IMG/VR virus record: IMGVR_UViG_3300032134_000004
Location: 1-49,451 of that record
DNA length: 49,451 nucleotides
Strand: one strand, 5' to 3'
Source of the DNA: a virus
Position numbers and translations under genes: made by a program. Numbering within the stretch: position 1 is the stretch's first letter; every line of letters begins with the position of its first letter. This document shows, one piece after another, positions 5,361 to 32,078 of this stretch. The notes below the pieces were generated by a model, which saw only the letters and a list, made by a program, of their open reading frames with translations, was not told where the DNA came from and did no database searches.

Positions 5361-5378
5361 CTTGAAAGGGTTGTTATT

Positions 5379-6305: not shown

Positions 6306-6324
6306 AAAAGAAAGGTAATATAAC

Positions 6325-7827: not shown

Positions 7828-7853
7828 ATGATTCATATGCTCCTTGTGGTTAA

Positions 7854-7882
7854 GGGGGGCGGCTCCTTGTGGGTCGCCCCCC
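7854..7882 (+). terminator. Strong hairpin just after the capsid gene
   Basis: Arms GGGGGGCG (7854-7861) and CGCCCCCC (7875-7882) pair perfectly and extend by four more pairs (two G-U) to a 5-nt loop. It starts 27 nt after the MCP stop and has no U-tract, so it is more likely a partial attenuator or an mRNA 3'-end stabiliser than a full intrinsic terminator. It would raise MCP output relative to downstream genes. Confidence 0.6.
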
Positions 7883-7897
7883 GCCCCGGGGGTGGGA

Positions 7898-8522: not shown

Positions 8523-8526
8523 CTTT

Positions 8527-8596
8527 GTCAGCCGAGGTACCCGGCTGGCAGAGTCTAAATATCAATCGGGGCAACAGCCCCGGCGAAAGCCGATTG
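8527..8596 (+). promoter_or_regulatory. Structured intergenic RNA with alternative folds
   Basis: First hairpin: 8527-8534 pairs with 8542-8549 (CAGCCG/CGGCTG core, 7-nt loop). Next, CGGGGC (8567-8572) pairs with GCCCCG (8577-8582) around AACA, and CGGC-GAAA-GCCG spans 8581-8592. A competing long-range stem CAATCGG (8563-8569) with CCGATTG (8590-8596) would break both. The element ends 13 nt before the ATG of the next gene, over its SD region (GAAAGGAAAG), so it could tune translation. Confidence 0.5.
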
Positions 8597-8609
8597 AAAG
8601 GAAAGATCA

Positions 8610-9122
8610 ATGGCACGAAGAAATACAACATCACGAAACTCACCGTATGCTCTCAATGCAACTGCCTATGTATCTACCACAGATGCAGTTAGCGCTACCA
8701 CGGGCCAAGGCGGTAGTCCACGAAACAACACAAGCATCTGGGAAAAACTAAACTCCATGTGCTTTGATGTTGAGTGGACAATCGGAACAGAATCAGGAGA
8801 TGCTATCAATGTCACTGCCCAACTCCTTGACCTTAAAGCCCGTAATCTTGGTCGGCCTGCTATGGTTGATTGGAGCCTCCGAGCATCAGATGTGGCTGGC
8901 GCATCTTGGGGGGCGATTGATACCGCATCTGACGGTTTAGCCATTGTCACAGGTACAGTTATCAATGAATGGAATGCGGACGCTTGGGCGCAAATGCAAA
9001 CAGATAATGACGGGAAACTTACTGTTACTGTCGGAGACTCAACTGGTGCTGACTATTACAAAGTTCAAATCGTAGTAGGCGACCGCGTCTTCCTGAGCCC
9101 ACTCATTACGTTCGCAGCCTAA
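8610..9122 (+). CDS. Small virion-type protein, function unknown
   Basis: 170 aa, Thr/Ser/Asn-rich N-terminus followed by a beta-rich body (SGDAINVTAQLLDLKARNL, GKLTVTVGDST, YKVQIVVGDRVFLSPLITF). This looks like a compact beta-sandwich, the usual build of capsid decoration or tail-collar proteins. SD GAAAGGAAAG lies before ATG 8610, downstream of a folded leader (8527-8596). It sits between connector-region genes and the repeat protein. I do not recognise a family; decoration or fibre-attachment protein is an inference from fold type and place. Confidence 0.6.
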   Translation: MARRNTTSRNSPYALNATAYVSTTDAVSATTGQGGSPRNNTSIWEKLNSMCFDVEWTIGTESGDAINVTAQLLDLKARNLGRPAMVDWSLRASDVAGASWGAIDTASDGLAIVTGTVINEWNADAWAQMQTDNDGKLTVTVGDSTGADYYKVQIVVGDRVFLSPLITFAA

Positions 9123-9145
9123 TCTAGGCAGTTAGGAGATAGCAC

Positions 9146-15400: not shown

Positions 15401-18400
15401 CCTATTTTGCGACCTGTTTTCATCGGCTTGTAGGGTTCGGTACCGCTTTGCCCTAGCCCTGCTTTCCGTAGTTGCGCCGAATGCATTTTCAAAGGCGTTT
15501 CTAAGAGATCCGTTTATGGGTTCATCGTATGCGTTTTCGTAAATTCGCCTCATAGACGTTTTGATTGCGTCAAACGCCCCTTGCAATTCAGGTCGAGGGG
15601 GTACGCCATTCATCACGAATTGCATGAATGCTTGGGCAAATTCCTCTTCGTGGGCTACAGACCAGTAGCCGTCTTCGATCCCAAAACGTTTTTCGAGCGC
15701 CGTGATATCCTCTTGGCTAAGATTCCGCCGAATGATGTGACCGATTTCATGGATAAACGAACCAATGTCGGGCTTATCCAGTGCGCGAATGAGCGCACCC
15801 CCCTGCTCCGTGAACTCAACAGAAGCACGAGCAACGTCACCATCCCCCATCTGGTAGAGTTGTCGGGCACCGGTGCGATCATACCTTCTTACGAGGGCTG
15901 ATCTCAGTTTTGGATCTGGGGTGAACTCCGCTAGTCTCTTAGTTTCAATCATCCCACTCTTTCTAGCAGCCTCCTTGACCCCGGGCTGCGAGTGGATGAA
16001 ATTAAATACTTCATCTATTATGAGTTTTTCATATGCACGTGCAGCAGATTGCCCGCTGCTATCCCGCCTGCCTGACAACCTGTTCAGTTCATCACCGTAA
16101 ATCATATCCGCCTGTTGGTGCCACTGGTGGTCGATGCCCCCCTCCACGCCCACTCCAAATCGGCTGCCCTCTGCCCTTCCCATAACCAACGCTCTGGTTT
16201 GGTGGTAGCCTTGATCCCATTCATCCGCCGCTGCTGTCCCGCCTGCCCTGTAATTCAGAAGGCTACCCGAGTCTTCTTCGTATTTTCTAATGAACTCTTC
16301 GACAACCTGCCAGTATTCCATTGTTTGGGTCGGAACGAGTTCGTCGTCCTGTGGCATAAATTTGGGAAGGGCATCCTCTCCGTATCGGGATATGAATGCG
16401 TCTTCGGCCTTCTCCAATCGCTCCATCATGGCCTCGAAATTACGCATCACCCGGGGGTCAATCGCCAAATCAAGTCGATCTGCCCGGCTCGCCATAAGCA
16501 TGCTTTGGAATGTCTCCCTTAGGGCCTCAACTTCTTTATTAACGGCTGTTAATTCGTTTGTATTATCTTTAAGTTGTCTGTTTAGTTCTTCCCACCGACG
16601 AGAACCGAGGGGGAAATCTCCCCCCTCTGCTCTTTGCGCCATATGTCGGAGTTCTTCTTTAATCGTCATTTCATTGGCTCTCAATAATCCAGTGTGTGAG
16701 AACTTTGCCCTAATTTCGTCCCGAGCCGCAGCAATTTCTTGCTGGGTATACTTTGCGATCTCGTGGCCCCTTCTGTAGCCGACGGCCGCCCTGACTTGGT
16801 CTAGGCTCACATTCCCCAAATCCATTTGTAGTAAAAAATCCATCTCCGACCCGTTGATTATTCGTCGATTTACGAGTTCCTCTTGCTTTAATATCTCTCC
16901 CCATCTTGACCAACTTTCTTCATCGACCATTTTAAAGAGCGTAAGGCCTCTCTCCCGGCCCACCGATTCAAGCAAGATGTCTTCTATAGCCTCTTCCATT
17001 TTTAGGATGTGGTCACCTATGCCCACGTTGTCGGTATTACCTATGCTTACGAGCATGTCCTCACTCAGCCCACTTATGTTTTCGATTACCTCGTCTTTAC
17101 TGGTAATTTTTATGTCTCCAGAAGACTCAAACCCCGTGCCCATCTTAGCCCATCTGTGTAACTTGCCCCGACCACTACCGTATTCTTCGGTGTCCGAAAT
17201 CAATACCTTATATCTATTACCTTGCTTGTCTATGATGGGAAACTCATCCATAGTTTTAGTGTCGCTTGGATCCCATCCGGGGTGCAGCCTTCGCAATATA
17301 GTGGCCGAGGATTGATCTCCTTCCGTCCCCTGTCCCCACCTCAGAAGAAAGAAGACATCCTCTTGACCGAGATATTTTGATGCTTCCGTCGTTGGGCTGC
17401 CACCCGTCAATTTATCGGCAGACCTCATGGAGGAAACGGATACGCCGTCATAGTTCTGTTTAATAGCATGATCAATTATTCTCCTAAGTCCCAACTTCTC
17501 CCACACAGTGGTATGTTTCCCGGATGGCAGTGGAATGGCGCTACGATCTAGGAAGGGGAGGGGGCCACTCTTAAACTCACGAAGAGCATCATCTATATTT
17601 TTCAGAGAACCCGGCATGAGTACCGAATACCGCGAGAAGTTTTCGTGCCCCACGGTCGCCGTGCGTATTACATATCCTGACTTCTTCGCTTTCGACACTT
17701 GCTCTTTAATCAGTTTTTCTAGCCTCTCAATTCTTCTTTCCAGTACGCGATACTTGGTCCCGGGATAATCGATCTTTCCTTTCAATGTATCTAATTCACG
17801 TTTGCCAGAAAAAAGACTGTCGGTCAGCCTTTTTATCCTTTTTTCAAACTTATCAACAACGTCCTCAAACGAGCGTTTCCACTTGTAGTAGTTAATTAAA
17901 TCTTCCCGGAACCCCTCGCCTGCGACCCCCTTATGCCCCAAGAGTTTCTTTAACTCGACAGGAACCGAGCCAGATTTGTCCGCTAATATAGTTGCGAGGA
18001 GTGTTGATCTGGGGTTGGTCCATTTAATTTCCCTCCCGGCCCGCCACTTTTCATCTATCCGCGAAGTAAAACCTTGGATAGCATCAGCCAATTTTGATTG
18101 TGTTCTTTGACCCGCTTGTAAAGTATCGCTTTGCAATTCTTCAATTTGAAGTATGCGCCTCCCGTTCTCCATTCGATCGGAAACCCTGATGTGAGCAATG
18201 TATCCCAACGCCCCCGGGAAATGGCCGTCTCCTACGAAAAGTTCTGGGTACTTCGATGCAAGTTGAAGGGGGGCTCTCAAGAAGAAAGTCCTAGTATTCA
18301 TTCCCCCTATTTCATGATATTCGGAATAACCTGTGCCATGCACTTTTCCTATTTCAACAACACCGGTGCCCTGTTGAATTCTCAGGCTTTCTTCGAGAGG

Positions 18401-21400
18401 GTATGCCCTGTTGTTAAATAACATCTGGTCGGCTAAAAACTCTGGCGACCTTCCATGCTTTGTTGACCCAATCAGGTCACGTAGGTAAACTGTTGCATCG
18501 TCCCCGCCGTGCTCTGGACCAATGAGTTTTTTCCCGACGGTTGTTTTTATGCTGCCGTCATGATGCATAATGGCGTCATGTAGCAGTTTTCTTCTCACAC
18601 TCATACTTCGTTCTCGGTTCCCTCGCACTAATCCTCTACTATCGTAGCCTTCTCCAATCGAACTCCACTCAAGCCGGTTCATGGTTCTGCCACCGATCCC
18701 CTCGGGGCCGGTAACTGTTTCGGGGAGCCCCCTTGTCCAAAGGTTTATCTTGCGTAAAGCAATAACGTCATCTTTAGTGTATTGGTATGGAACTTCCCAA
18801 AGTCTGCTAGTTTCCAACGCAGTTGTGCCACGACTATAATCCCCGGGACTTAACGAATGCAATCCTATCGTAGTGTTCTCCGTTGGGTCGCCCCCAACTC
18901 GAATCCTAGTTGTTCTGTTCGCCCCTAATCTCTGGGAGAATAAACCTTCAATAGCAAGGTTTAGAGTAGGGCGTTCGTTACGTGTAGTCCCTACTCCCCC
19001 CGTTTTAAAGGAGTGAATAGGTAGATCAGGCAACTCTCTCAACTCACTTGTGAGGGGGTCAACTTCATGGGTCTTGTACCTGTTGAAATAGGCCAGTATC
19101 CCGGGGTGCTCCTCGAAAATATCGTCAAGCGTAAATAGGTCTGCGTAACGATCTTGGTCTCCGTCCGCCCATTTGGGAGCCATGAAGATATTCTCACCGT
19201 CGTCCGCTCTAAACAGGTGCCGAGAATTAAATACGCTGTCTCCAGCACGTTCGTGCAAAAGACGTTGAACTTTTCTTATTGATCTAACACTTTCTTGACG
19301 ACCTCTTCTCCATACATTTGCGTCGGTTTCCGGTATTTTCTGCAATAATTCAAGATCCATTTGCTGGGAAAGAAGGAAATTTTCTATGTCCTCAGCCTTC
19401 ACAGCCTCACCCCTTCTCATACGCAAGTAATCAAGTAGGCCGGAGTGGATGAGTTCTTCCTCGGGGACTGCAAATATATCGCCCTTTGTATGTGTTGGCT
19501 TTTTGGCCCCCTTCTGGAACATGGTCCGGATGTGCTTGTATGGCCAACCGTACTTTCCAAACCCAGCCTTTTGTTCTTTATCTACACCTTTAAGCCTGAG
19601 CATGTCGAGCCATTTTTCTCCGGTTAGCGGTTCTGTCACCTCCAAGGTGCGAAGAATTCGGACAGCGTTAAGTGAGCCATATTCTGTGATTGCGGTTGGG
19701 GGCAGTCCACCTATTTCCTTGAACCTTCGTGCTTGCTCCGATCTTAGTTTCGACGCTTGCTCCCCAATAGGATCAGCCCCGTTAGACCGGAAAGGCTTGA
19801 ACCCGCTCCAATCTCTTGGGTTGTCGTGGATTCTTTCGATACTGGCGAGGAGACTTTCTTTTGCAAGGAACCCCGCCTCTTCTTTGCTGACCCCCGCTTG
19901 CGCTTTCGGCCCGAATGTTTTGATTGTCCCTGTTTTTTCTTGGACATTTTCGAGTTTCCTTATTGCTTTCATTGCTCTTCTGTCAGTGACCAGAAGAAGC
20001 AATGAATCATCAAGTTCTGTTACGTCGTCTATATTCAGTTCCCAAAGGGGATTTGGACGATTAGGCCACAGTTCCTTTGGGACTTCATATAGTCTGGCAG
20101 GCCCCCCCTTGCTCGGCAAGAACAATTTTACCTCATTGTGATTTCCAAGGAACGCGTTGACGAGGGCGGCATATGTCAGGGTTTCTTCGTCGGCTGCCTC
20201 TTTGATAAAGACCGCATTAGATGCAACCCTTTCCCCAGTAGCGTTCGTCGTGAAGCCCGTCCTAAGCACCGCTCCATCGGCTAATCCAGTGTGGCGGAGA
20301 ACATCTGTAGCGGAGTTCGACCAGTTGGGATCGATTCCGGAATCGTTCAGTTTGTGGACTATGTATGCGTCGTTGATTTCTTTGGGGATGGGTCCGCCTT
20401 GGAACAAGACCTCTCTCCCCTGCGGGGTCTCCCCCCCTTTGTTTATTTCGATCCAGTCATTGAGCCAATCCTCTTTAGTTCCAAATCTCCCGCCTTGCCT
20501 TGCAACTGCTTGATCTGCCATGGCATCCAGCATTCTCGCCAGAAACTCTTCCTCACCTTCCTTTGCGAAACCCGCCTCGCGTGCTCTGTTTGCAGTGGCC
20601 AAGGACGCAGCGGAGGGAGGAGGCAAATCTCCCAGCAGTTCACTTTTTTCTGCGTTGATGTCGTCAAGTTTTACTCTGAGTTCCCTGACCCTGACGGTGT
20701 CTTCCGCCGTAGAATTGGCTAGATTCTTTTGCAGACTCCCTAGTTCACGATTCACCAGTCTTTCTTCGTGCCTGAGAATACTGATCTTGTTCCCCAGATC
20801 ATGCATTTTCACGTTGTGATTATTGAAGAGGCGGGACAAGAAACTCGGCCCTTCAAAGATGCCGATGCCCTGCCCGGGGAACTCTCCCCTGACGCCATTA
20901 ATAGCATCAAGGAGTATGTTAGTTCTCGGATTAAGGATGTCCCCAACTTGGTGTGCCGATAGGTTTTTCAGAGCAAGGGCAGCCTTCAGGTCAGCCGTGG
21001 CATCCGTTACCCTAGACGCAAGTTTCGCAAGTTTCTCTGTTTGCTCAAGCGTAACTGGCGGGGCTCCTTCCCCTAAATCAAGGGCCCCCCTTTCTGCTTT
21101 CTCTGCCTGTACCCAAGCCTCCTCGCTCTGCGCATAGGCTTGGTGCATCCTTGCGTAGTGGGCTTCTTCATCCAAAAGCCTAACCCCGTCTTCGACAACG
21201 TCTACTTCCTTGAGCCTCTGCTTTATCTTAAGCGCTCGGCCAAGGCGTTCCGTGTCAAACACGAACTCCGCATCGGCAGTGGGAGCATCCCATTTCCACC
21301 CGACTGTGTCTTCAACATACCTCCATTCGGAGTGATCGAGTTCTGCGGCATTGACCGATACGGTTTTCCTGTATCCGTTTGCGGACTCGGTGACAGTTAC

Positions 21401-23086
21401 CTTTTCTCTCAGTGCCTTTGGCAATGAACTAATAAACTCGTTCACGGCTCCGGTGGCTTTCTCAGCAGTTCCAGCAGCAATAGAGAACTTTGAGGCGGTA
21501 CTTTCAAACCTTCCCAATTCGAGGAGATTCTCGGCTGCTATTGCGGCCCTCGCCGTGGCGTCTCCTGCTCGCATCATGGAATCAGCGCCCTTGAGATTCC
21601 TAATCGCCTTGTACTGTCGAGCGCGCTGTCCTATCCGAAGAAGCGGCATGTTGGTGCCAAGGTTTCTGTAGCCGGTTCGCTTCCAAAGCAGTGGCATGAC
21701 CCAGTCCATGAACGGGACGTGGGTCTGGTAGTCTGCCTTAGCCATAAACCTACCGAAAAACTCCGCTGACAATTCCATGCCAGCAATAATGTCGTCGTTC
21801 TTGTTAGCGACAGTGCCGAGCCTGTTGTACTTAAGAAGCCGCTCCCTAGTTTGGTCAAAGATTTTTCCTAACGCAGCCTTCTTTTCCTTGCGGGTCATGT
21901 TCGCTGCCTTGCCAACCATTTTAAACGCTTTGTTAAGGCGTTCAATATGGTTAAGGCCAACACCGATATCTTGCAGGGTAGAGCCAGTAAGTCCGTTATC
22001 GACAATCAGGGTCTTGTTGAGGAAGTCTTCCAGAGTTTTGTATTTGGAATTATCCGGCAAGATTATCTTGGTGATATTGCCAGCGTCGTCTGTAATCGTC
22101 CGACCCTTTGCAAGCATCTCCTTTGCGGCATCTTTCACGTATCGAATGCCACGGCTTTCGATCGCTATAGTTCCAGATCTCCTTGCTAGTTGTTGTGCTC
22201 CCCTAGTACCGGCCACCTGCCACGCTCTTACGGTGCCACCGCCAGTGGCGTAGGAAAGTGGGTCAAGCAAGATATCACCTGCGATACCCAGAATGGCTTG
22301 CGCTGTTCTGTTTTCAACCCCGAACCTCTTGAGAACTTCGGAGAAGTAAACCCTTCGCATACCAAGGGAAGCACGCTCTTGCTCCTCGCTGGAAATTCGT
22401 ATCTGCTTCCTGTCCTCTTGGCTCAGGGTTGCATGGCCTATGATGGACGATGCTCCCAACCCGGCTGCGTATAGCGCAGCGCCATGAAGTGCACCATACG
22501 CCGCACCCCCCACGGTTCCTACCGCTGTCCCTAGACCGGGGAAAGTGAGTGAACCCCCCATTGCCCCATACCCTGCTCCAATAGCAGCACCGCCTGCCAT
22601 CATCGTGCCGAGTCCAGCCGCCGCACCCTCCCAGTCCGGTTTGTCGGTGAACGCTACGTTGAAGATGGAGTTTCTAGGAAGGTCGATGAAGTCAAGGAAC
22701 TTCCATACGGCGGACCTTTCTTCTCCCAAGATATTGCCACCGGACTGCTTGATCCTCTCACGCATCTCATCCCGAGTCATCGCATTGATTTGCGCGATGG
22801 TCATACGAGGCACAGTCCTCTGGTTGAGGACGGACTGCTGAACGGGGTTTTCTTCTGTGTTCTTGAGGATGCCCCGATCTATGAGATCTTGGCGGGCCTT
22901 GCGTTGTTGTTCTTCAACGGACTGCTTTATCAGCACCGACCGCATGGCCATGGCTTCATTTTGCTTCCTGCGTTCCTCGTCGTCAGGAAGTTTGGGAACC
23001 GTTCTGGCAAGATTGTGGCCGCCCTGCGTCATGTTACGCAGGAACTGTTGGTTAGTCAGTTGAACTGGACCGGAGAACTGGGTCAA
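12467..23086 (-). CDS. Giant polyvalent virion protein with zincin-type metalloprotease motif
   Basis: 3539 aa, one fifth of the genome. Landmarks: a Gly/Ala-rich, membrane-compatible stretch (153-217, AAAGLGTMMAGGAAIGAGYG...), as in ejected proteins that form a channel; IAHIRVSDR followed by IEELQSD (about 1648-1654) and LGLRRIIDHAIKQNYDGVSV (about 1840-1860), hallmarks I know from phage polyvalent proteins; a zinc-protease helix FIHEIGHII (HEIGH 2446-2450) with a candidate third ligand in HEEEFAQAF (about 2477-2485); and a C-terminal unit with DDTFRTAVYLSRR and FDYGDFTKLEEK...IPFYAWQRNNIALQ (about 3215-3275), resembling LPD38-type domains. Long coiled coils connect them. Such proteins are packaged and injected with DNA. 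No T7/N4 RNA polymerase motif was found. Start is TTG overlapping the previous stop (TTGA); ATG 23032 is an alternative. Confidence 0.85.
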   Translation of the reverse strand: MTQFSGPVQLTNQQFLRNMTQGGHNLARTVPKLPDDEERRKQNEAMAMRSVLIKQSVEEQQRKARQDLIDRGILKNTEENPVQQSVLNQRTVPRMTIAQINAMTRDEMRERIKQSGGNILGEERSAVWKFLDFIDLPRNSIFNVAFTDKPDWEGAAAGLGTMMAGGAAIGAGYGAMGGSLTFPGLGTAVGTVGGAAYGALHGAALYAAGLGASSIIGHATLSQEDRKQIRISSEEQERASLGMRRVYFSEVLKRFGVENRTAQAILGIAGDILLDPLSYATGGGTVRAWQVAGTRGAQQLARRSGTIAIESRGIRYVKDAAKEMLAKGRTITDDAGNITKIILPDNSKYKTLEDFLNKTLIVDNGLTGSTLQDIGVGLNHIERLNKAFKMVGKAANMTRKEKKAALGKIFDQTRERLLKYNRLGTVANKNDDIIAGMELSAEFFGRFMAKADYQTHVPFMDWVMPLLWKRTGYRNLGTNMPLLRIGQRARQYKAIRNLKGADSMMRAGDATARAAIAAENLLELGRFESTASKFSIAAGTAEKATGAVNEFISSLPKALREKVTVTESANGYRKTVSVNAAELDHSEWRYVEDTVGWKWDAPTADAEFVFDTERLGRALKIKQRLKEVDVVEDGVRLLDEEAHYARMHQAYAQSEEAWVQAEKAERGALDLGEGAPPVTLEQTEKLAKLASRVTDATADLKAALALKNLSAHQVGDILNPRTNILLDAINGVRGEFPGQGIGIFEGPSFLSRLFNNHNVKMHDLGNKISILRHEERLVNRELGSLQKNLANSTAEDTVRVRELRVKLDDINAEKSELLGDLPPPSAASLATANRAREAGFAKEGEEEFLARMLDAMADQAVARQGGRFGTKEDWLNDWIEINKGGETPQGREVLFQGGPIPKEINDAYIVHKLNDSGIDPNWSNSATDVLRHTGLADGAVLRTGFTTNATGERVASNAVFIKEAADEETLTYAALVNAFLGNHNEVKLFLPSKGGPARLYEVPKELWPNRPNPLWELNIDDVTELDDSLLLLVTDRRAMKAIRKLENVQEKTGTIKTFGPKAQAGVSKEEAGFLAKESLLASIERIHDNPRDWSGFKPFRSNGADPIGEQASKLRSEQARRFKEIGGLPPTAITEYGSLNAVRILRTLEVTEPLTGEKWLDMLRLKGVDKEQKAGFGKYGWPYKHIRTMFQKGAKKPTHTKGDIFAVPEEELIHSGLLDYLRMRRGEAVKAEDIENFLLSQQMDLELLQKIPETDANVWRRGRQESVRSIRKVQRLLHERAGDSVFNSRHLFRADDGENIFMAPKWADGDQDRYADLFTLDDIFEEHPGILAYFNRYKTHEVDPLTSELRELPDLPIHSFKTGGVGTTRNERPTLNLAIEGLFSQRLGANRTTRIRVGGDPTENTTIGLHSLSPGDYSRGTTALETSRLWEVPYQYTKDDVIALRKINLWTRGLPETVTGPEGIGGRTMNRLEWSSIGEGYDSRGLVRGNRERSMSVRRKLLHDAIMHHDGSIKTTVGKKLIGPEHGGDDATVYLRDLIGSTKHGRSPEFLADQMLFNNRAYPLEESLRIQQGTGVVEIGKVHGTGYSEYHEIGGMNTRTFFLRAPLQLASKYPELFVGDGHFPGALGYIAHIRVSDRMENGRRILQIEELQSDTLQAGQRTQSKLADAIQGFTSRIDEKWRAGREIKWTNPRSTLLATILADKSGSVPVELKKLLGHKGVAGEGFREDLINYYKWKRSFEDVVDKFEKRIKRLTDSLFSGKRELDTLKGKIDYPGTKYRVLERRIERLEKLIKEQVSKAKKSGYVIRTATVGHENFSRYSVLMPGSLKNIDDALREFKSGPLPFLDRSAIPLPSGKHTTVWEKLGLRRIIDHAIKQNYDGVSVSSMRSADKLTGGSPTTEASKYLGQEDVFFLLRWGQGTEGDQSSATILRRLHPGWDPSDTKTMDEFPIIDKQGNRYKVLISDTEEYGSGRGKLHRWAKMGTGFESSGDIKITSKDEVIENISGLSEDMLVSIGNTDNVGIGDHILKMEEAIEDILLESVGRERGLTLFKMVDEESWSRWGEILKQEELVNRRIINGSEMDFLLQMDLGNVSLDQVRAAVGYRRGHEIAKYTQQEIAAARDEIRAKFSHTGLLRANEMTIKEELRHMAQRAEGGDFPLGSRRWEELNRQLKDNTNELTAVNKEVEALRETFQSMLMASRADRLDLAIDPRVMRNFEAMMERLEKAEDAFISRYGEDALPKFMPQDDELVPTQTMEYWQVVEEFIRKYEEDSGSLLNYRAGGTAAADEWDQGYHQTRALVMGRAEGSRFGVGVEGGIDHQWHQQADMIYGDELNRLSGRRDSSGQSAARAYEKLIIDEVFNFIHSQPGVKEAARKSGMIETKRLAEFTPDPKLRSALVRRYDRTGARQLYQMGDGDVARASVEFTEQGGALIRALDKPDIGSFIHEIGHIIRRNLSQEDITALEKRFGIEDGYWSVAHEEEFAQAFMQFVMNGVPPRPELQGAFDAIKTSMRRIYENAYDEPINGSLRNAFENAFGATTESRARAKRYRTLQADENRSQNRLNAASARVTENSRRIEETEEKMEMALAARREAMAPLQEELDAARGTMVHKASEVAEKFERRFRDLTGAGRRGKFSGQAVSVFRHAHENTPEFQRRLVIDAFDKNLATIKSRFDMTTGDAHAILYAKFMEADARARNVNGIHPSDGHVNSAFEGNIDNIMNKYGGREKIWNDPQIERLAEKVQKMHADMAIKEAASGAMAIPNPGFAYVPLRLTDHAQRAAWARAADTRAVRDRASSGARVTGQEQAHLHRATNRYFYRTDEANPYWVDESGDGWNYVWAGEVSDGRNLPADFIAYRKAFVRENPDKMLPGDIYDYNLAIQQAGGNPGQYLPTPGWRGNPIGNPNGERWLPQVYATSPTELNRPSTSHRFSDMLGSEYKGQIWETDLGLILGKRVREHWRSAAVSDFLKSIAPEMKALTLDEVKDAVINPRQGNIVNQGGRDIIINNVAYRRLSEEVRTNKMTEALLGGGAKSYYYPEDVAAALDDYIRRISDDQNITAIGNAFDYVQSIWKGSVLMNPAWTTVNVLGGVIHSMIVGGMSLGDFTEHFMTAKRLSHQFHFGNRKGKIIPTGPGMIFDDAKTYTLGGETLTETEMVEHLVKINAVDGSQTAREVINLHRTAFGNPDAYAKKTILDQVRYIATFGPLGGWWFRLNASIDDTFRTAVYLSRRAKGDTVDNAVLMMKKAHFDYGDFTKLEEKVGRRVIPFYAWQRNNIALQYKLLFDRPGYVNVWQKIRHAMEVEGLDEEDRVPLFMLPRWIRNQLMIQMSGEGGEAKGLVLSSLTPIQELLQTAQAAFGVEGFKDMSKYMLGSSSPILKSLFEMGTGQRVFDSRKIGDPELGELTISEYMLDQVGYYNSYKGLERAVTRDGLEGLLWRLAVRGRWQPLDIDRLQAQISIDTSEDIKLLRRQVNRAMQEGDEERAETIGLRIINEYRKMWLAGIRHRVPKELWPEFNREGGMLRREGRPVPGSNLPIQPKTQ

Positions 23087-25737
23087 GGCCTTTGGGTCCT
23101 ACGCTTCCTTGGAGCACCTAATGGTGGGTTGTTCATTCCGACTTCCTTGTATTGCGCCTGATAATTTGCAAGTTCACTATGGAAATCTGAACCCATGGAC
23201 ATTTTGGCAATCGTAAAGTAATACTGCTCCCTTGCATCTTGCATTTGATCTGCAAGATCTGCTCCGCCAACGATTCCCCGAGCCATAGAACCAATCCACA
23301 GGAATGGTCCACCGGCTGCATCAAAGTCCTCATAGCCGCTGTTATGCATGAGCATCTGCATACTTCGAGCAATGGCCTGAGCCTCGTCCGGGTCTCTTTG
23401 GTGTATCTCCACAAGTTCAGCAAGACTTGCATCCATGTTCTTTACATAGCCACGTTGCCTAGCCTCATCACCTGAACCCATGCCCCACCATCCCGCTTCA
23501 ATATCTCCAAAGGGTCTGATGAAGGACAGGTCAACGTTAGGCATGGCCTTCTTGGCGTAGTCGCCAAGATTGCCTCCCTCCTCGGATTCCGTGGCTGCTT
23601 CATCAACGGGCTTTACAAAGACTCCGCTGACTGGGTCTACTCCCATGCCCAAGGCTCCGGGCTTTATGCCCATCTGTCTCGCTATTTCGGCAACAGAAGG
23701 TACGGACATCGCCATCTCGGCTATTGCTTGACCAAACGTGGTCATGCCCTGACTCGCTCCAGCGTATTCCATAGCCATGGTCATTATGTCTGACTTAGAG
23801 AGTTCCTTACCATCCTCGTACATCTTCGTCTGCAAGTCCGCTGCCGCTTGGGCAATAGTCAACTTACCTTGTTCGATTCCGAGCAAAGACGCTTGATGTG
23901 CGGAGTTTGCTTTCATTTCCGTTTCGGATAATTCAAGTTGTCCTTCGCCGAGTTGAAGAGTATTCGCGGCTTTCTGATATTCCAATTCACGATCTAGGCC
24001 AGCCTGAGTTGTGGCGGCTGTCAGTTGATCTTCTCGGGATCTTTCTTCCCCAAGCCTTGCCGCTGTTGTTTCTACTAATTGGTCTCTATCAAGAGCCAGT
24101 TGTCCTTGAGCGGTCGAGGTTTGCTGTTCAATAAGACCTGTCTCTGCCCTCATCCTTAGTAAATCGGGTACAGACATGTTAGCGCGTTTAGCGTCTTTTA
24201 TCAGTTGATCTCTTTCACGACGTTCTTTGTGCCTTGCATCACGCGCTTCTCTCTCAGTCCTTCCCGCTTCTTTCGCTTCTTCAAACCTTTCTTGCTTCAA
24301 CCCCGCAATCCTTTTCCTTTTATCGGTTGGTCCTTCTTCTCCTCGGGATGTTGCGATAGCATCCCTGTTGGCCATGGCCCATTCCTGATTAACAATCCTG
24401 ACTGCATTTCGATCGGTGATCATAGGATTGTCCTTCATCTTCTTCTCAACAGCATCAGAGAACCCCGGCCCCCACCTTCTGACCGCTAACTCCTTTTTGT
24501 ATTCATCGCTAGTCGGAAGGTGCTGCATCCTTGGATCATCAAGAGTGCCAGCACCAGCACTGCGAGCAACAGATTGTGACCTGTTCCATTCCGGGTCTCG
24601 GCGTATAGCCCGTGCTTCGTCGGACTGGGCTCCATGAATCCTGACAGTCTCGTCGTAGTCTGGGCCCATGTAACCACCAGCCATTGGCCGACCAGTCGAT
24701 GTACGGGGAACATCAGTGTCCGTGGTGGGGCCCATGTATGGAGGCGTGGGCGGTGGTGGTGGTGAGGGCGGACCCACGAACCCACCAGCAGCGGGCGGAC
24801 CAGCAGCGGGCGGTGGCGGTGCACCGGCGGGTGAACCCATGAACCCACCAGCAGCAGGCGGTGCAGCAGCGGGCGGCGCAGGTGGACCCATGAACCCACC
24901 AGCAGCGGGTGGTGGCGGTGCAGCAGCGGGTGGTGTAGGCGCGATCTGGCCCGGGATAGGCAGGTTGATCATGCCGGGAGTTGTGGGGAATGGTTGTGCA
25001 GGCGGGGCTTCTTCAGGTCCCTGCTGGCCTGCTATGGGGATGGGGATGTTAGGACCCGCCCCTCCTTGTGAAGGGATTGGCAGCCCGTGGAAGGGATGTA
25101 TGCCCGGTCCGGTATATCCCTGCTCTGGCTGAGGGCCGGGGGCTTGCCATGGAGCCTGCGTAGTCGTAAATGGTTTGGGAGATGTGGGAAGAGGAGCAAT
25201 GCCTTCAACAGCCCGTGAAAGCGGGTTTTGCATATCCTCTATGGAGGGGGTGCCTCTTCCTGTGATGTCCCTTTCCATTGCCGACTCCGCACCGCTTTGG
25301 GGTCCGAAGTCTCCCGAGAGCATGCGTTCTTGTGTGGCGGTTGGAGGATACGGTGCTTGCGTATCTTGGAATGGCTGAGGTGAAGTTCCTCGGGCTTGCA
25401 TTGAGATATCTTCAGCCGCCCGTGAAAGCGGGTTTTGCATATCTTGCATGGAGGGCGTGCCCAAGCGAAGACGCGCTTCGCGGCGTGGCTGATCCGGTGC
25501 GGGTTCGTCTAGTGGATTCGTCGCTTGCGCCTGTCCAGCACTAGCAGCCATGTGGGGTTGGGGGATCGGTGGGTCGTATTTGACTGGGCCTGCCGTGGGG
25601 GCCTGTCTCGAAGAGACAGGTCCGAACGCGGGTTCTTGCACGTCCTCTGGAGCAACGTTCGGTGGTGCACCCGGGGCGGTAGCCCCAGATTTATTCAGTC
25701 TCTTCTTTTCGTCTTTACGGGGTCGTCGTAGTGCCAT
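23083..25737 (-). CDS. Pro-rich, coiled-coil internal virion protein
   Basis: 884 aa from ATG 25737. The N-terminal 90 residues are basic and Pro/Ala-rich. A ~40-aa unit occurs twice (93-132 and 162-200, both with GTPSxxDMQNPLSRAxExI then TQAP). A Pro/Gly tract with four PPAAGGFMGxP-like repeats follows (about 240-340). The second half is charged and helical (KDAKRANMSVPDLLRMRAET, QLALDRDQLVETTAARL) and ends globular. It precedes the giant protein with a 4-bp overlap, the position of internal core proteins in short-tailed phages. Function as an ejected or core protein is inferred from place and composition. Confidence 0.7.
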   Translation of the reverse strand: MALRRPRKDEKKRLNKSGATAPGAPPNVAPEDVQEPAFGPVSSRQAPTAGPVKYDPPIPQPHMAASAGQAQATNPLDEPAPDQPRREARLRLGTPSMQDMQNPLSRAAEDISMQARGTSPQPFQDTQAPYPPTATQERMLSGDFGPQSGAESAMERDITGRGTPSIEDMQNPLSRAVEGIAPLPTSPKPFTTTQAPWQAPGPQPEQGYTGPGIHPFHGLPIPSQGGAGPNIPIPIAGQQGPEEAPPAQPFPTTPGMINLPIPGQIAPTPPAAAPPPPAAGGFMGPPAPPAAAPPAAGGFMGSPAGAPPPPAAGPPAAGGFVGPPSPPPPPTPPYMGPTTDTDVPRTSTGRPMAGGYMGPDYDETVRIHGAQSDEARAIRRDPEWNRSQSVARSAGAGTLDDPRMQHLPTSDEYKKELAVRRWGPGFSDAVEKKMKDNPMITDRNAVRIVNQEWAMANRDAIATSRGEEGPTDKRKRIAGLKQERFEEAKEAGRTEREARDARHKERRERDQLIKDAKRANMSVPDLLRMRAETGLIEQQTSTAQGQLALDRDQLVETTAARLGEERSREDQLTAATTQAGLDRELEYQKAANTLQLGEGQLELSETEMKANSAHQASLLGIEQGKLTIAQAAADLQTKMYEDGKELSKSDIMTMAMEYAGASQGMTTFGQAIAEMAMSVPSVAEIARQMGIKPGALGMGVDPVSGVFVKPVDEAATESEEGGNLGDYAKKAMPNVDLSFIRPFGDIEAGWWGMGSGDEARQRGYVKNMDASLAELVEIHQRDPDEAQAIARSMQMLMHNSGYEDFDAAGGPFLWIGSMARGIVGGADLADQMQDAREQYYFTIAKMSMGSDFHSELANYQAQYKEVGMNNPPLGAPRKRRTQRP

Positions 25738-25738
25738 T

Positions 25739-26161
25739 TTAATACTCACCAATCGTGTTTCTTTGGCGACCGATGTCGTCGGTTCGTCGAGTTCGAGGAT
25801 CTGGTATTGGGTTATTCGACCTTTGTGCTGTCGCTTGATTTACCTGTGGCCCCACGCCTTGCCCTTGCCTCGCCACTATATCAGGTGGTGGTAGGGGTTG
25901 GGCTGTGTTTCCTGTAACTGATGCACCCGAAACAGACGCGGGGGCACCGGATACAGGCGAGCCATCTTCTCCCATTGTAAAGTCCGACATGCCCGGTGTC
26001 ATGTACTGCCGGGGCGGGGGGATGGGGGGCTGGCTCTGGACTTGAGCCAACGCTTGATCAAAGATGTTCATTGGGGTGAAGGCTGACATCGCTATTCCTG
26101 CCTTAGTGAGTATATCAGGTGCATCTATTTCTTCCCTTTTCTCTTGTGGAATGGGACCCAT
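25739..26161 (-). CDS. Small Pro/Gln-rich virion-region protein
   Basis: 140 aa from ATG 26161 (MGPIPQEKREEIDAPDILTK). The first ~50 residues can form a helix with a hydrophobic patch (ILTKAGIAMSAFTPMNIFDQAL); the rest is Pro, Gln, Ser and Gly-rich and probably unfolded. The start overlaps the previous gene by 37 bp, and the TAA is one base from the ATG of the 884-aa protein. No family is recognised. Its linkage to internal virion genes suggests a minor virion component. Confidence 0.55.
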   Translation of the reverse strand: MGPIPQEKREEIDAPDILTKAGIAMSAFTPMNIFDQALAQVQSQPPIPPPRQYMTPGMSDFTMGEDGSPVSGAPASVSGASVTGNTAQPLPPPDIVARQGQGVGPQVNQATAQRSNNPIPDPRTRRTDDIGRQRNTIGEY

Positions 26162-26493
26162 TTGTTCAGTGCGGCCTGCCGCTTCTTGCAACCTCCACAA
26201 CCCTCTATTCCAGTAGTCGCCTTGATGGTCTTAGCCACCAGATCCCCGAGACCACTCATTCCTTTTTCCTCGGGTTTCTCCTCGGGCTCCTCGTCATGGA
26301 ACTCAGCAAGTCTGCTTTCTGACATTACTCCTGACGCCCTCTTCATAATCTCCCCTCTCTTTTTCATCTGTTCCTGCGTGAGGGGATTTTTGGGATTTGT
26401 TGTTTCCACTTGGCGACTACGTAAATAGTCCTTATGCGCAGATCTTGCTTCTGCGTATTTAATTAAGACATCCATCGCTTCATTATTAGCCAA
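26125..26493 (-). CDS. Small conserved protein with CxxC motif
   Basis: 122 aa. The N-terminal two thirds are charged and helical; the C-terminus reads TGIEGCGGCKKRQAALNKWVPF, a pattern (GxxGCxxCxxRxxxLNxxxPF) I have seen at the end of many small phage proteins, where the CxxC may bind a metal. Its function is unknown. It lies between the Cys-rich tail proteins and the internal virion genes and overlaps the next gene by 37 bp, implying coupled translation. Confidence 0.7.
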   Translation of the reverse strand: MANNEAMDVLIKYAEARSAHKDYLRSRQVETTNPKNPLTQEQMKKRGEIMKRASGVMSESRLAEFHDEEPEEKPEEKGMSGLGDLVAKTIKATTGIEGCGGCKKRQAALNKWVPFHKRKGKK

Positions 26494-26503
26494 TTAAAAA
26501 CTC

Positions 26504-27826
26504 CTAAATAACAGAGAGTTTGTAACTAAGGGATCTGTTGGCGGGATACATCCACAGTTCCGCATGCATCTCTTTATACGCTCCTCCCGAGCAATATCCT
26601 ACGATGACATGGTATGCTGTTGTGAAAATCGTTAAAACAACTGCCCTGTTTCGGTATTCGGATATATCAATTATCGCGGGACCGGGGAAGCCAATCGAAT
26701 CATTTACCCCCGTAGACTCGATAATGCCCTGCCACCCCTCTCCCATTGGAGGGTCTTCGCAAGTCCACTGGCCCGGTCCATTGCAACAGGCGTCGTGGTT
26801 GCAGCCGCCTTCGCAATACTCGCACGCACAATGACCAAAACTCGGCGCACAAGGGCAAGTGGGGTTCACGCACCGTTTGATGTATTGGGGTTGTCTATCA
26901 CATTCCGGAAATTGAACAGCGTTGACAGCGGGTAATATTGTCGCCCTGTAGCCATTTGGAGCGATGGCTTCAATACCGCACGGACCCGGGGCATCTGGGC
27001 AATCGGGATGAAAGGGAGGAGAGCCGCAGCCAACGGTAGAACCACTTTCCCAGCCCTCATAAGCCGTTGGAATAACTGTACCATCCGGGAGGGTAATTGT
27101 GCATTCGCAAGCCGACCCGGTCCCGGGAAATGGGCCCACCGGGTCGTGCGCTTTAAGGTCAACAAGAGTACCAATGCCTGAAGTTATCTTCAAAGTTCCT
27201 GCCCCTCCCGGAACCGATCCCTGCCCCCCACCACTCGGGCTAGTAAAAGGGTGTGCACTATAGAACCCCACTTCGTTCGGGTTGTAGCCCGGGATATTCC
27301 ATTGCTCGGGCACGTCGTTCAAAAAACAAGGATGTGTATTATCACATTCACCTTGGCCCAGTGTTCCAGAGACAACCAAGTAAGAAGCATCACAAGTAAA
27401 TGTAAAGATGTATGAGGCTACTACATCCCCGCCGCCCGTGGAGCATCTGGGGCATGGGCTATGTGAATCACTACAACACCACCAAGGTGTTTGATCGTTC
27501 CCCCACGGGATGTCGGTCTCGTAGATGCAATCTCCGGGGTCATCGCTACACCCACAAATTCCGATATGACCTTGGCACTTACACTGATCAAGTAGATCTG
27601 GATTCATTCCGACGGCGCAACAAGGATAGTCGCTGCTTCCGACGCAATCGCCGCCGCCGAGTTCAGTATAAAACGGTCCCTTTATACACACTAAAGGGTT
27701 GTCATCACAGCACGGGTTGTGTCCATATCCTGATATGCCATAGGATTCTAGGGAAAGACGTTTATCGCCCTCCCCTGTATTGAGGTTGTACCCCTTCATG
27801 CAGTAGTAGTTATCGTCGTGTGGCAT
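26504..27826 (-). CDS. Extremely Cys-rich secreted-type tail protein (possible adhesin)
   Basis: 440 aa with 36 cysteines (about 8%), in clusters such as NPCCDDNPLVC, CKCQGHIGICGC, WWCCSDSHSPCPRC and CACEYCEGGCNHDACC, alternating with Gly/Pro/Asp-rich loops. The C-terminal ~80 residues lack clusters and look like a beta domain. The spacing does not fit a zinc-finger array and resembles disulfide-knotted extracellular domains. Start ATG 27826 overlaps the previous stop (TAATG). It is the third of three adjacent tail genes with rising Cys content. A distal tail or receptor-binding role is inferred; no family recognised. Confidence 0.65.
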   Translation of the reverse strand: MPHDDNYYCMKGYNLNTGEGDKRLSLESYGISGYGHNPCCDDNPLVCIKGPFYTELGGGDCVGSSDYPCCAVGMNPDLLDQCKCQGHIGICGCSDDPGDCIYETDIPWGNDQTPWWCCSDSHSPCPRCSTGGGDVVASYIFTFTCDASYLVVSGTLGQGECDNTHPCFLNDVPEQWNIPGYNPNEVGFYSAHPFTSPSGGGQGSVPGGAGTLKITSGIGTLVDLKAHDPVGPFPGTGSACECTITLPDGTVIPTAYEGWESGSTVGCGSPPFHPDCPDAPGPCGIEAIAPNGYRATILPAVNAVQFPECDRQPQYIKRCVNPTCPCAPSFGHCACEYCEGGCNHDACCNGPGQWTCEDPPMGEGWQGIIESTGVNDSIGFPGPAIIDISEYRNRAVVLTIFTTAYHVIVGYCSGGAYKEMHAELWMYPANRSLSYKLSVI

Positions 27827-28527
27827 TAGTTGGGTGTGCACTGATGATCCGTGTCTGGTGGTATTGGTGTCCTTATGCAGCAGTCTTGCGTTGCTATATG
27901 ATGTAGCAATGCATCCCTGTACTCTCCGGCTACATTCACTACATGGTGAATCCTCATCGCGTCCAGCACGTGAATTTCTTCGTCATTACCTTCGTGGTCA
28001 CAGACCAAGAAAGTTGTTACCCCAATCCACACCGAGAAATCTCTATCAGGGTCCTGCCCACCGTGGGAGGTATGCGGGTCGGCCATCGGGCTTGTGATTG
28101 AAGTAAAGCAATCTTCGAAGAACTCCATCTTCGATAATTGAAGTTTTATATACCTCCCCGAAGGTATTCCTGTGTCGAAAGGCGTTTGATAATCAAAAAT
28201 GTTATGAACAAAGGACAGCCCGTAGGTGGTTGCGCAATGATTCCCACCATCGATTGTTCCGCATGCTCCCTCTCCATCGCTCGGTGAGCCACCACCATTA
28301 TTCCCACCGGCGGCTGCAAGCAGTTGGTTCAGGGTCATTTCATATGTATCAACAGGAGTGACATGGCGCACCTCACCCTCCTGTACGTACATTTTCATTT
28401 GTTCAACGCCATTATTCTGGTCGTTGTTCGTGTACAGAGAACTATTGCGACGGTGGTCGGGAGTGTCTCTGATCTCATCAGAGTACACGCTTTGGATCGA
28501 GTCGAACGCTTGGTTAATGGTAGACAT
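27826..28527 (-). CDS. Tail-associated protein with Cys-containing C-terminal part
   Basis: 233 aa from ATG 28527, which overlaps the nozzle stop (TAATG). The N-terminal 80 residues are soluble and mixed; then a Gly/Asn linker (GGNNGGGSPSDGEG), and a domain with FEDCFTSITSP, FSVWIGVTTFLVC and DAMRIHHVVNVAGEYRDALLHH. Eight or so Cys residues occur, all after residue 85, including a CC pair near the end. Located between nozzle and the Cys-rich protein, with one-base overlaps on both sides, it is probably a tail tip or fibre-anchor subunit. Family not recognised. Confidence 0.6.
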   Translation of the reverse strand: MSTINQAFDSIQSVYSDEIRDTPDHRRNSSLYTNNDQNNGVEQMKMYVQEGEVRHVTPVDTYEMTLNQLLAAAGGNNGGGSPSDGEGACGTIDGGNHCATTYGLSFVHNIFDYQTPFDTGIPSGRYIKLQLSKMEFFEDCFTSITSPMADPHTSHGGQDPDRDFSVWIGVTTFLVCDHEGNDEEIHVLDAMRIHHVVNVAGEYRDALLHHIATQDCCIRTPIPPDTDHQCTPN

Positions 28528-30971
28528 TACGGCCAATCCTGCCCGGGCTCATCGCCCACTGTCTTCGGGTCATCGTCGTAGGCTAAGTCAATAGTAACCC
28601 TGTTTAAGGAGATCTCTTGTCCGGAAGCCTCGATCCTGATACGGAAATATCGACCCCTCATCCCCATGAATTTTGAAACTGAAACCCTCTGGCCATCGCT
28701 AGTTTCGACAATAGCGGTTCTTTCGTCAAGAGTCTTGTAAGAGACGCCAACTATGTCGTTCGGGTTATCGAAGGTGGAAACCCTGACAGTGAAGTCACCA
28801 GATCTGTAGCCCAGATCAAGTTGCACGTTGCCAATGACCTTGTCCAAGTGTGCGTTCTCATTCACCCACATCTCAACTAAGGATGTGGTGTCGCCACTTT
28901 CATCACTGTTGTTATACGACGATATTCTTGGATCGTATTCCATACACGTGTTGTCAAGCCACATGTAAAAGGCGTACCCTCCGTCAGCACGGTGAGAGAT
29001 CATGTAGTTACTCTGTTGGGAACTCCCCGGGTTGGTTAGTTGATCGTCAGGAGAAGTCTGTTGGCCTGATCCTATCCACCACTCGGAGGTGAAGTCGTCT
29101 CCAATGTCGTGCATCAATACGCGGTATCGGTCTGTTTCCCCGGGTATGGGGAAGGTCATCAAGAGTTTCTTTGAATCTTCAATCAGTCCAATCCTTACAT
29201 CCTTCTTTTGCGACTTTGTGAGTTCATCCATCCAACCGTCAAACCTCAACTCACGCAAGATTTCCACAGCCTTGCCACCCTTGAGCCACACGGGTCCCTC
29301 GTCCGCTACCCACAGCACGCCGTTGGAAGTGGGGTGCACCGATTGGTGTGTGAGGACACCCGGGCCCCCCAATTCCTGTACCTGCGGGGCTCCGCTGAAT
29401 CCGAGTTGGTAGATAGTCTGCCTTGTCAGAAGGATCGTCGAGCCAGAATCGTTGAATGTATGCATGGGCTTGCCGCGCATGGAGGGCAGCGGGCTGAACG
29501 TGTCTTTCTGGTTATGTGTAGATCTGCCAATCTGTTCCGGATGTCCCACGCTGTACTCAACCCCGGGCCTGACGCCAGCGGGGGAGAACGAATAAGGGTT
29601 GTCACCAAAGGCTTGATATGACGAATCGTTTGCGCCTGACACGTGTCTCGGGAAGAAGTAGAGGGCCGTGCCCCCGGGAAGTATTGCCATGGTTTCCGAG
29701 GGGACAGGCCTATCGTACTGCTCTGAGTATTGCCCAGAATCCGCCAACGAAGATTGATCTTTGTACAGGCATATTTTCCCGCTGGGGCAACTCATCCCCA
29801 CCTGCCCCGTGGCACCTTCCAGAACAATATCTTCCAAGAACATCATATCTGACAGGTGGTCGGACATTGCATGAACTTCGTCATACAACATCTGCGTCCC
29901 AAAGTTTGCGCTCGGAGTCTGCATGGTCAGGACTTCGGTCGGAGGCGAGCACCATATGGCTAGACCCAAGTCCCCTGCGCCAGTCATGCCGGGAGGAGCA
30001 ATCTCAACCATGTACTGATAGAGAGCGTAACTGCTCCTGTTTGGTCCGAATCTAATGATCGACTTGGGACTACAGGCTTTCCCAAATATCCCCCTCTTCG
30101 CATCGTAATACCCAACCTTGAAAGAGAAGTTCAAAATCTTCTCGCCTCGACTGTTGTGTGTACTGGACGAGGGCACATGCCAACAGAAAATCCCCCCTAG
30201 CGACCCTTCTTGGGGCAGACATTGGTACTGGTTGAAGAGTCCCGTGTCGGGGCCTGATTCGCAATGTGCTGCGCACGGGTTTGGGAGGTCGCAATATGGA
30301 GCCCCCTCTATGCAAGAGGTGTCAGTTTCCCCCCACCCACAGTTACCATCCCAGTCCCCCTCAGCCCCCGACTCCCCGCAGCAAAACTTATCCAACCCAC
30401 CGGGGAGACGATAATCGATCTCAAGAGTTTCAGTCAGGCACTGGCAGAAATACCCGCAGTAATTGTCAATCGAAAAATCTTGGGCGGCCTTTACGTGTGG
30501 ATTGACCCCGAAATACTTACCGCCCATGCCGGGGACGCCGACGTTTCTGACGTTGACTCCGTCATACGAAAACATCGCTCCGCCACCCACGGAGTTTTGG
30601 CAAAAGTACACCTCGCCGCCGTAAACCGAAAACGAGCCGGGTTCCCCTTTATCTATTGACTTATAGTGGAGCCCGGACAAACCAACTGAACTGAAAGTAT
30701 TTCCAGAGAGCCTGTATATCGCCTTGTTGGAATTCACCACTAGGCTGGAGCCGGACTTGATCCCCACAAGATTGGAAGTGATGTGAGAATCCGGGGTGAC
30801 AGTAATCCCAGTCGGCCCTGTCTTGAATCCACGACGGGTCCGGATGGTTTTCTCTGGGGTCAACTCCATGTTGACTACGCGGGTTACGGGGTTCTCCCCC
30901 AACTCGGGCTTCGCGGGTGTTTGACTGAAGGCGTCCCACACATGAGTCTTGTACTGCTTGCTGCCAGCCAT
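28527..30971 (-). CDS. Tail nozzle-like protein (tail tubular protein B type) with Cys-rich insert
   Basis: 814 aa. The N-terminal part (VVNMELTPEKTIRTRRGFKTG, then beta-strand repeats GIKSGSSLVVNSNKAIYRLSG, VGLSGLHYKS, FSVYGGEVYFCQ) matches the opening of podovirus nozzle proteins, which start by declaring parameters and build a beta-propeller. Mid-protein LLTRQTIYQLGF and VLWVADEGPVWLKGG continue that propeller. Between about 160 and 275 sits an insert with over ten Cys (CGYFCQCL, CCGESG, CIEGAPYCDLPNPCAAHC). It lies 3 bp after the adaptor gene, as expected. The function is supported by order and size; the insert is unusual. Confidence 0.72.
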   Translation of the reverse strand: MAGSKQYKTHVWDAFSQTPAKPELGENPVTRVVNMELTPEKTIRTRRGFKTGPTGITVTPDSHITSNLVGIKSGSSLVVNSNKAIYRLSGNTFSSVGLSGLHYKSIDKGEPGSFSVYGGEVYFCQNSVGGGAMFSYDGVNVRNVGVPGMGGKYFGVNPHVKAAQDFSIDNYCGYFCQCLTETLEIDYRLPGGLDKFCCGESGAEGDWDGNCGWGETDTSCIEGAPYCDLPNPCAAHCESGPDTGLFNQYQCLPQEGSLGGIFCWHVPSSSTHNSRGEKILNFSFKVGYYDAKRGIFGKACSPKSIIRFGPNRSSYALYQYMVEIAPPGMTGAGDLGLAIWCSPPTEVLTMQTPSANFGTQMLYDEVHAMSDHLSDMMFLEDIVLEGATGQVGMSCPSGKICLYKDQSSLADSGQYSEQYDRPVPSETMAILPGGTALYFFPRHVSGANDSSYQAFGDNPYSFSPAGVRPGVEYSVGHPEQIGRSTHNQKDTFSPLPSMRGKPMHTFNDSGSTILLTRQTIYQLGFSGAPQVQELGGPGVLTHQSVHPTSNGVLWVADEGPVWLKGGKAVEILRELRFDGWMDELTKSQKKDVRIGLIEDSKKLLMTFPIPGETDRYRVLMHDIGDDFTSEWWIGSGQQTSPDDQLTNPGSSQQSNYMISHRADGGYAFYMWLDNTCMEYDPRISSYNNSDESGDTTSLVEMWVNENAHLDKVIGNVQLDLGYRSGDFTVRVSTFDNPNDIVGVSYKTLDERTAIVETSDGQRVSVSKFMGMRGRYFRIRIEASGQEISLNRVTIDLAYDDDPKTVGDEPGQDWP

Positions 30972-30974: not shown

Positions 30975-32078
30975 TTACCCCATACCGCCCATGAAGCGAC
31001 CGTTGAAAGACCGGAACTCCTGTTGGAATCTTGCGGGCTTGAAGTACGAGGCATTCCATTCGTTTGACCCCGAGTCATCGAACTCCGCCAACAGACTTCG
31101 GTAGTCCTTCTCCACTTTCTCTGACCACCTCTTGGCATCCAAGTCATTGGACCCGAAGAGCATCAACATGCGGGCCACAATCCTGTCACGGAGATGCATC
31201 CGGAAAGACGGCGGCCACTTTTCGAGACCCGGCCAAGCATTATCAACCTTGTCGATATCAGGGACCCCTGTGTAGATGACACAGAACGCCTGATACGTCG
31301 TGTCTGGTTCAGGCAGCCACTGGATCGAGGTGGTGCTTCCTTCAGGTATCAAGTAGAAATACTTGGGTCTGCCTGTCGTGGTCTCGTTGGCATAGGATGC
31401 CATCAAGTGTGCCCATCTCGTGGAGTCCTGCCATTGGCACTCGGTTACCACGTTATTGGTGCCCTTGATGTAGATAATCTTGCTGGCAATGCCGTCGAAT
31501 GAATCGGTGGTATCTGCGATTGTCACAGCACCATCGGTAGCAATCTCCATCCACACTGGAGATCGCCTGAACCGCCAATGCCGTGAGTCCCACAGCATGG
31601 CGTGCTCTTCATAGATAGCCCTGTCAAGTACATCAATGGACGGGAAGACTGGGGCTTCCTGACGAAGGAGTATTGCAATGACAGATGACCTCATGCCATC
31701 CGGGGTAGTTGTTGAATCAGAATCCCCGAACGAATCTCCCCATGAAGTTGCGTATGTGCTTGTGATTTGCCCAAGCAGGGAAGCGATGGCCGTCTGCCGG
31801 AAGTTGGCAGCATCTTGAACAGACCGGAACTGGCGAAGCAAACGCTCAATGACCTCAAGTTCCACCAGTTCGGACCACACTGAATCACTTGATGATTCAC
31901 CGGCGACAACAGCCTCATTGGCAGACTTGGCGTACCACTTGCGGATCTCATCTACCCGGCTCTCGGCGTGGGTAATGTACCCGACCCAAGGTTCTTCCCC
32001 AAGAGTTACCGGAACATTGGTCGTTCGTCCGAAGACCTCGTACAGAACCCTGTTTGTGGCGTCTGATGAAAGTGCCAT
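30975..32078 (-). CDS. Head-tail adaptor / tail tubular protein A-like
   Basis: 367 aa. Helical N-terminus (VLYEVFGRTTNVPV...GYITHAESRVDEIRKWYAKSAN), a central beta region (AVTIADTTDSFDGIASKIIYIKG, YFYLIPEGSTTSIQWLPEPDTTYQAFCVIYTG) and a helical end (FRMHLRDRIVARMLMLFGSNDLDAKRWSEKVEKDYRSLL). This arrangement, including a late segment listing residues that scan like MxLxxxDxxxAxxWxxxxxxxxxxL, is typical of T7 gp11/P22 gp4-like adaptors. It is followed by the nozzle gene after 3 bp and preceded by the next gene with no gap. Confidence comes from paired order and pattern. Confidence 0.75.
   Translation of the reverse strand: MALSSDATNRVLYEVFGRTTNVPVTLGEEPWVGYITHAESRVDEIRKWYAKSANEAVVAGESSSDSVWSELVELEVIERLLRQFRSVQDAANFRQTAIASLLGQITSTYATSWGDSFGDSDSTTTPDGMRSSVIAILLRQEAPVFPSIDVLDRAIYEEHAMLWDSRHWRFRRSPVWMEIATDGAVTIADTTDSFDGIASKIIYIKGTNNVVTECQWQDSTRWAHLMASYANETTTGRPKYFYLIPEGSTTSIQWLPEPDTTYQAFCVIYTGVPDIDKVDNAWPGLEKWPPSFRMHLRDRIVARMLMLFGSNDLDAKRWSEKVEKDYRSLLAEFDDSGSNEWNASYFKPARFQQEFRSFNGRFMGGMG

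Follow-up and report, generated by a model that had tools for sequence, protein, structure and literature searches.

The question raised by this locus is what a protein of extreme Cys content does beside the presumed tail genes of a phage. The window, by which we mean the whole stretch of DNA analysed, is the full 49,451 bp of IMG/VR virus record IMGVR_UViG_3300032134_000004. Its terminase was assigned by a match to the PHROG 38 profile and its portal is of the P22 type (Pfam PF16510, P22_portal, E = 3.3e-11). Together these genes give solid ground for reading the genome as that of a tailed phage whose portal is of podovirus type, and the portal type indicates a short-tailed phage. A host search with terminase and portal against bacterial genomes returned a sole match, to a Candidatus Kapaibacterium genome; at 37% identity across 52 residues it does not allow a host to be assigned.

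Two relatives were recovered by searches of viral contigs, IMGVR_UViG_3300021197_001498 (G001) and IMGVR_UViG_3300009604_000003 (G002), and both are colinear with the window. When the portal was used as a query against twelve records, only these two matched. Identity to the window in G001 and G002 respectively is 85% and 76% for the terminase over its length, 85% and 70% for the portal and 56% and 43% for the nozzle-like protein, with about 70% for the capsid protein candidate. All three genomes have head and packaging genes on the plus strand (617-11248 in the window) and tail, presumed ejection and replication genes on the minus strand (11681-48859).

A unit of three genes, coding for a nozzle-like, a middle and a Cys-rich protein, is found in identical order in the window and both relatives (n = 3 genomes; window coordinates in Table 1). 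The small protein of the CGCKKRQAALNKWVPF type forms the 3′ border of this cassette in 3/3 genomes. On the other flank the candidate adaptor retains 63-65% identity in G001 and 48-49% in G002; it gave no family match, with phrog_1559 (function unknown) at E = 0.009. An earlier note on this DNA, made from its letters, had described the three genes as translationally coupled. The DNA makes this plausible, as stop and start share a base at both junctions (TAATG): the ATG of the middle gene at 28527 overlaps the nozzle-like stop, and the ATG of the Cys-rich gene at 27826 overlaps the stop of the middle gene.

Table 1. Features of the window discussed in the text, with coordinates, strand and Cys content where given.
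Feature	Coordinates	Strand	Remarks
700-aa protein	9146-11248	+	located after capsid gene
3539-aa protein	12467-23086	-	0 Cys; presumed ejected
889-aa protein	23083-25752	-	0 Cys; presumed ejected
Small downstream protein, conserved C-terminus of CGCKKRQAALNKWVPF type	26125..26493	-	phrog_32048, E = 1.7e-9
Cys-rich protein, 440 aa	26504..27826	-	36 Cys; net charge roughly -32; counterparts by position in both relatives
Middle protein, 233 aa	27826..28527	-	7 Cys; ATG 28527; candidate anchor or adaptor
Nozzle-like protein, 814 aa	28527..30971	-	18 Cys, 12 invariant across three genomes
Cys-rich insert, nozzle-like residues 160-268	30168..30494	-	12 Cys, 8 invariant
Connector-like protein, 367 aa, candidate head-tail adaptor	30975..32078	-	2 Cys; upstream of nozzle-like gene

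Read from the ATG at 27826, the Cys-rich protein has exactly the 36 Cys in 440 residues counted in the note (8.1%); read from a GTG at 27841 it has 36 in 445. The binomial chance of 36 Cys in 445 residues is 1e-20 at the window-wide Cys rate of 1.05%, and 4e-10 at 2.4%, the rate reported for structural proteins of Agrobacterium phage Milano. A comparison set of 151 ORFs of 250 aa or longer, taken from other phage loci, has a median Cys content of 0.63% and a maximum of 4.8%, the latter in a virion-associated protein of Milano. The Cys-rich protein far exceeds all 151, and the view that phage tails rarely carry so many Cys holds within this set. The note had proposed CC/CxC clusters as something to search for; when sequences of equal composition were shuffled, however, CC, CxC and CxxC spacings occurred as often as in the real proteins (CxxC pairs number 2 in the window protein, where 2.8 are expected, and 3 in that of G001, where 2.3 are expected). 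Cys content, not a cluster motif, is therefore the remarkable feature. With net charges of -23 to -40 the Cys-rich proteins are acidic, and they contain no internal repeats exceeding those of shuffles.

A spurious ORF is ruled out by the slot and composition shared among three genomes. Codon bias is uninformative on this point, for in the Cys-rich and middle genes the choice among synonymous codons hardly departs from chance (z about 1.2 and 1.4). A secreted or membrane protein was likewise rejected, as hydropathy revealed neither an N-terminal hydrophobic stretch nor a membrane helix. None of the three genes of the cassette has a family match in Pfam, PHROGs or NCBIfam. Searches for a fibre, spike or glycan-binding domain gave no match in these databases and no significant match among PDB sequences, which weighs little because many receptor-binding proteins have no such match. 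Moreover, tblastn of the Cys-rich and nozzle-like proteins produced zero matches in 50,697 phage records, and no relatives were found with the Cys-rich proteins themselves as queries. The AlphaFold model of the Cys-rich protein (pLDDT 34) was too poor for use.

In both relatives the slot after the nozzle-like gene is again occupied by a Cys-rich protein, with 33 Cys in 458 residues (7.2%) in G001 and 24 in 305 (7.9%) in G002. With an odd number of Cys, the G001 protein must have one or more thiols that are left unpaired or bonded to another molecule. Pairwise comparison of the three proteins gave Smith-Waterman z values of 0.6, 1.0 and 2.1, none clearly above shuffle, and their Cys cannot be aligned. 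When the virion region of the window (617-32714) was compared with G001 by tblastn, only the Cys-rich and middle genes were without a match; against G002 the 889-aa gene and a 153-aa gene were also without one. Homology is thus undetectable in the Cys-rich slot, whereas most neighbouring virion genes are 43-85% identical. As judged from these sequences the slot turns over much faster than its virion neighbours, as receptor-binding genes are expected to do; such genes typically lose similarity while the nozzle next to them is conserved. Two more distant records (G003 and G008, terminase fragment identity about 28% and 26%) carry no comparable Cys-rich gene, and their sole ORF of at least 200 aa with more than 5% Cys resembles a non-coding frame.

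Such turnover could also arise if unrelated receptor-binding proteins were swapped among phages of one environment or host type, the high Cys content then being a signature of habitat or host and not a device for variability. We consider this possible though unlikely. It would fit three proteins that cannot be aligned and range from 305 to 458 aa, the weak codon-usage signal is compatible with recent acquisition, and the authors of the Milano work propose adaptation to the host environment (PMC10491603). However, each replacement would have to be independently Cys-rich, and the virion as a whole is not enriched, Cys being ordinary or low in the capsid protein candidate, the portal and the 700-aa protein. 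With three genomes, exchange of unrelated adhesins and rapid divergence cannot be separated. A separate observation concerns the 700-aa protein, three parts of which align to one stretch of a shorter homologue in G002; it thus has apparent internal repeats of about 120 aa, with a copy number varying between relatives.

In contrast to the Cys-rich proteins, the nozzle-like protein keeps its Cys in place, 12 of the 18 being invariant. The Cys-rich insert of about 110 aa seen earlier is borne out, with 12 of the 18 Cys falling within residues 160-268. Within it, 8 of the 12 Cys are invariant compared with 13% of the non-Cys positions (Fisher p = 1.6e-4, three genomes), and the inserts of the three genomes are clearly similar to one another (Smith-Waterman z 7 to 25). 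Fixed Cys with variable loops, as these alignments suggest, are what small domains scaffolded by disulfides or metal usually show. The note had further suggested that the insert may have moved between these genes. All comparisons between insert and Cys-rich protein gave z values between -0.7 and 1.3, so that an insert common to both is not supported and there is no evidence that either originated from the other.

That the 814-aa protein is the tail nozzle can be proposed with moderate confidence. The portal is of podovirus type, the gene adjoins the candidate adaptor and this gene order is kept in three genomes. In addition, the homologue from G002 alone gave a weak match (E = 0.033) to phrog_8040, head closure Hc3, within the N-terminal part of that family, Hc3 being the annotation carried by P22 gp10. 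Direct hhalign comparison of the nozzle-like protein with T7 gp12 and P22 gp10 gave no match, and an AlphaFold model built from two sequences was unusable (pLDDT 31). We infer the label 'tail' for the cassette from gene order and this one weak profile match, not from the sequence of the Cys-rich gene.

The middle protein has 7 Cys, the 'several' of the note, in 233 aa if read from the ATG or 236 aa if read from a TTG. Its N-terminal 70-80 aa or so are homologous to the counterpart in G001 and its C-terminal part is variable; direct pairwise comparison gave a Smith-Waterman z of 21 with G001 and did not find similarity with G002. A scan of viral contigs for the anchor motif returned G001 as the only related record, and two further matches had the short N-terminal motif alone, followed by different proteins. 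The idea that all three genes have the same odd composition stands in part: the unit is kept in three genomes, but the middle protein is much poorer in Cys in the relatives (4/167 and 2/187), so that the enrichment is robust in only two of the three genes.

The two presumed ejected proteins show the opposite composition. The 3539-aa and 889-aa proteins are free of Cys, as are their counterparts in G001 and G002, and neither matched a polymerase or lysozyme family, with no RNA polymerase match in Pfam or PHROGs. In N4-type phages the absence of Cys from the giant polymerase that is injected has been connected with its passage through the tail or the oxidising periplasm (PMC3715699, PMC2784036, PMC3915230). 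By analogy with N4, Cys may be kept from parts that are possibly injected and concentrated in parts that stay outside.

Taking this evidence as a whole, the reading we prefer, at a little short of even chances, is that of a variable podovirus tail-tip cassette comprising a nozzle with a Cys-scaffolded insert, an anchor and a Cys-rich adhesin stabilised by disulfides after lysis. The three genes would then code for the distal end of the tail of a podovirus. The 814-aa nozzle would bear a small disulfide-type domain (residues 160-268) in which the Cys are conserved and the loops free to vary, and the middle protein would dock onto the nozzle via its N-terminus. The Cys-rich protein would be an exposed protein of host recognition or adhesion, made without a signal sequence and assembled as free thiols in the reducing cytoplasm. 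The lack of a hydrophobic N-terminus or membrane segment points to synthesis and assembly in the cytoplasm, with oxidation possible only after lysis; at that point the protein would be oxidised to a disulfide-scaffolded, rather than metal-bound, structure, and both it and the nozzle insert would form disulfides after release. If disulfides replace a conserved hydrophobic core as the scaffold, the sequence may change or be replaced fast while Cys stays at 7-8%. The disulfide- or metal-stabilised tail tip suggested in the note is retained here in part. The insert Cys kept while the rest varies is a Cys-scaffolded pattern and Milano offers a precedent for disulfide locking, whereas CxxC pairs show no excess over shuffles.

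The Cys-rich and middle proteins may instead be host-takeover, exclusion or other accessory proteins encoded within a tail operon, with the Cys serving another purpose, which we think rather unlikely. No tail domain was recognised in them, fast turnover is also seen in accessory genes, and fast-evolving genes without matches are common in phages. Such proteins would not, however, readily account for the stop-start overlap with the nozzle gene, for a slot that is shared by three genomes or for a Cys enrichment that is partly common to the nozzle insert; moreover, there is no signal peptide or membrane segment, and 7-8% Cys is unusual in a cytosolic protein. More doubtful still is a hypervariable, disulfide-scaffolded receptor-binding slot in which selection acts on Cys content alone and the sequence between the Cys diverges past recognition, as might be likened to disulfide-rich toxins or knottins, perhaps with thiol-disulfide exchange that links it covalently to the host surface or to the nozzle insert. 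Least probable is a tail tip stabilised by zinc or iron-sulfur metal bound to the Cys, as in lambda gpL-type tips or iron-bearing spikes, for although the Cys are many and metal is documented at the tips of other phages (the central spike of Milano likely holds a histidine-coordinated Fe ion; PMC10811340), CxxC pairs do not exceed shuffles, no zinc-finger or ferredoxin family was matched and the Cys positions vary between relatives, unlike usual metal sites.

If the cassette is as we prefer to read it, Cys content and not a conserved fold would hold the host-recognition part together, while the proteins that the particle presumably ejects lack Cys altogether. The time and place of disulfide formation in phages could then be tested simply, and very high Cys after a nozzle gene could serve as a signature by which to find host-recognition genes of uncultured phages when homology gives no lead.

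Several known systems resemble parts of this locus. Metal-bearing tips (the lambda gpL-type iron-sulfur tip and iron-bearing central spikes) also place Cys or His at the distal tail. Such tips use few ligands at conserved positions, whereas the proteins here have 24-36 Cys without positional conservation. The Cys-free 3539-aa protein of the three genomes recalls the giant ejected proteins of N4-type phages (Schitoviridae), but has no RNA polymerase family match. The tails of the podoviruses P22 and T7 are similar in arrangement, given the P22-type portal, the candidate adaptor beside a long nozzle-like gene and the weak Hc3 match; however, there was no significant hhalign match to gp10 or gp12, and in the annotated P22 and T7 regions the nozzle gene is not followed by a Cys-rich one.

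In composition the locus resembles Milano (also 7-7-1 and OLIVR4), whose virion proteins are Cys-enriched. Its neck, capsid, sheath, baseplate and receptor-binding proteins are joined by an extensive disulfide network and its stability is DTT-sensitive (PMC10811340, PMC10491603). Milano's particle is thus disulfide-locked, while virion membership is here proposed from genes. We do not claim membership of the Milano group for this phage; no sequence similarity to it was found, tblastn of the nozzle-like and Cys-rich proteins against Milano giving no match. Milano is a myophage with Cys spread across the virion at about 2.1-2.4% (top protein of at least 250 aa 4.8%, in the 50 kb examined), and its Cys are conserved across relatives, whereas here 7-8% Cys is found in one slot whose sequence is not conserved. 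Disulfide-locked phage tails are therefore already known from Milano, and the cassette, if correctly read, would extend them from Milano and its relatives to short-tailed phages. What is new, in a genome of podovirus type, is that extreme Cys content is kept in one slot while the sequence turns over.
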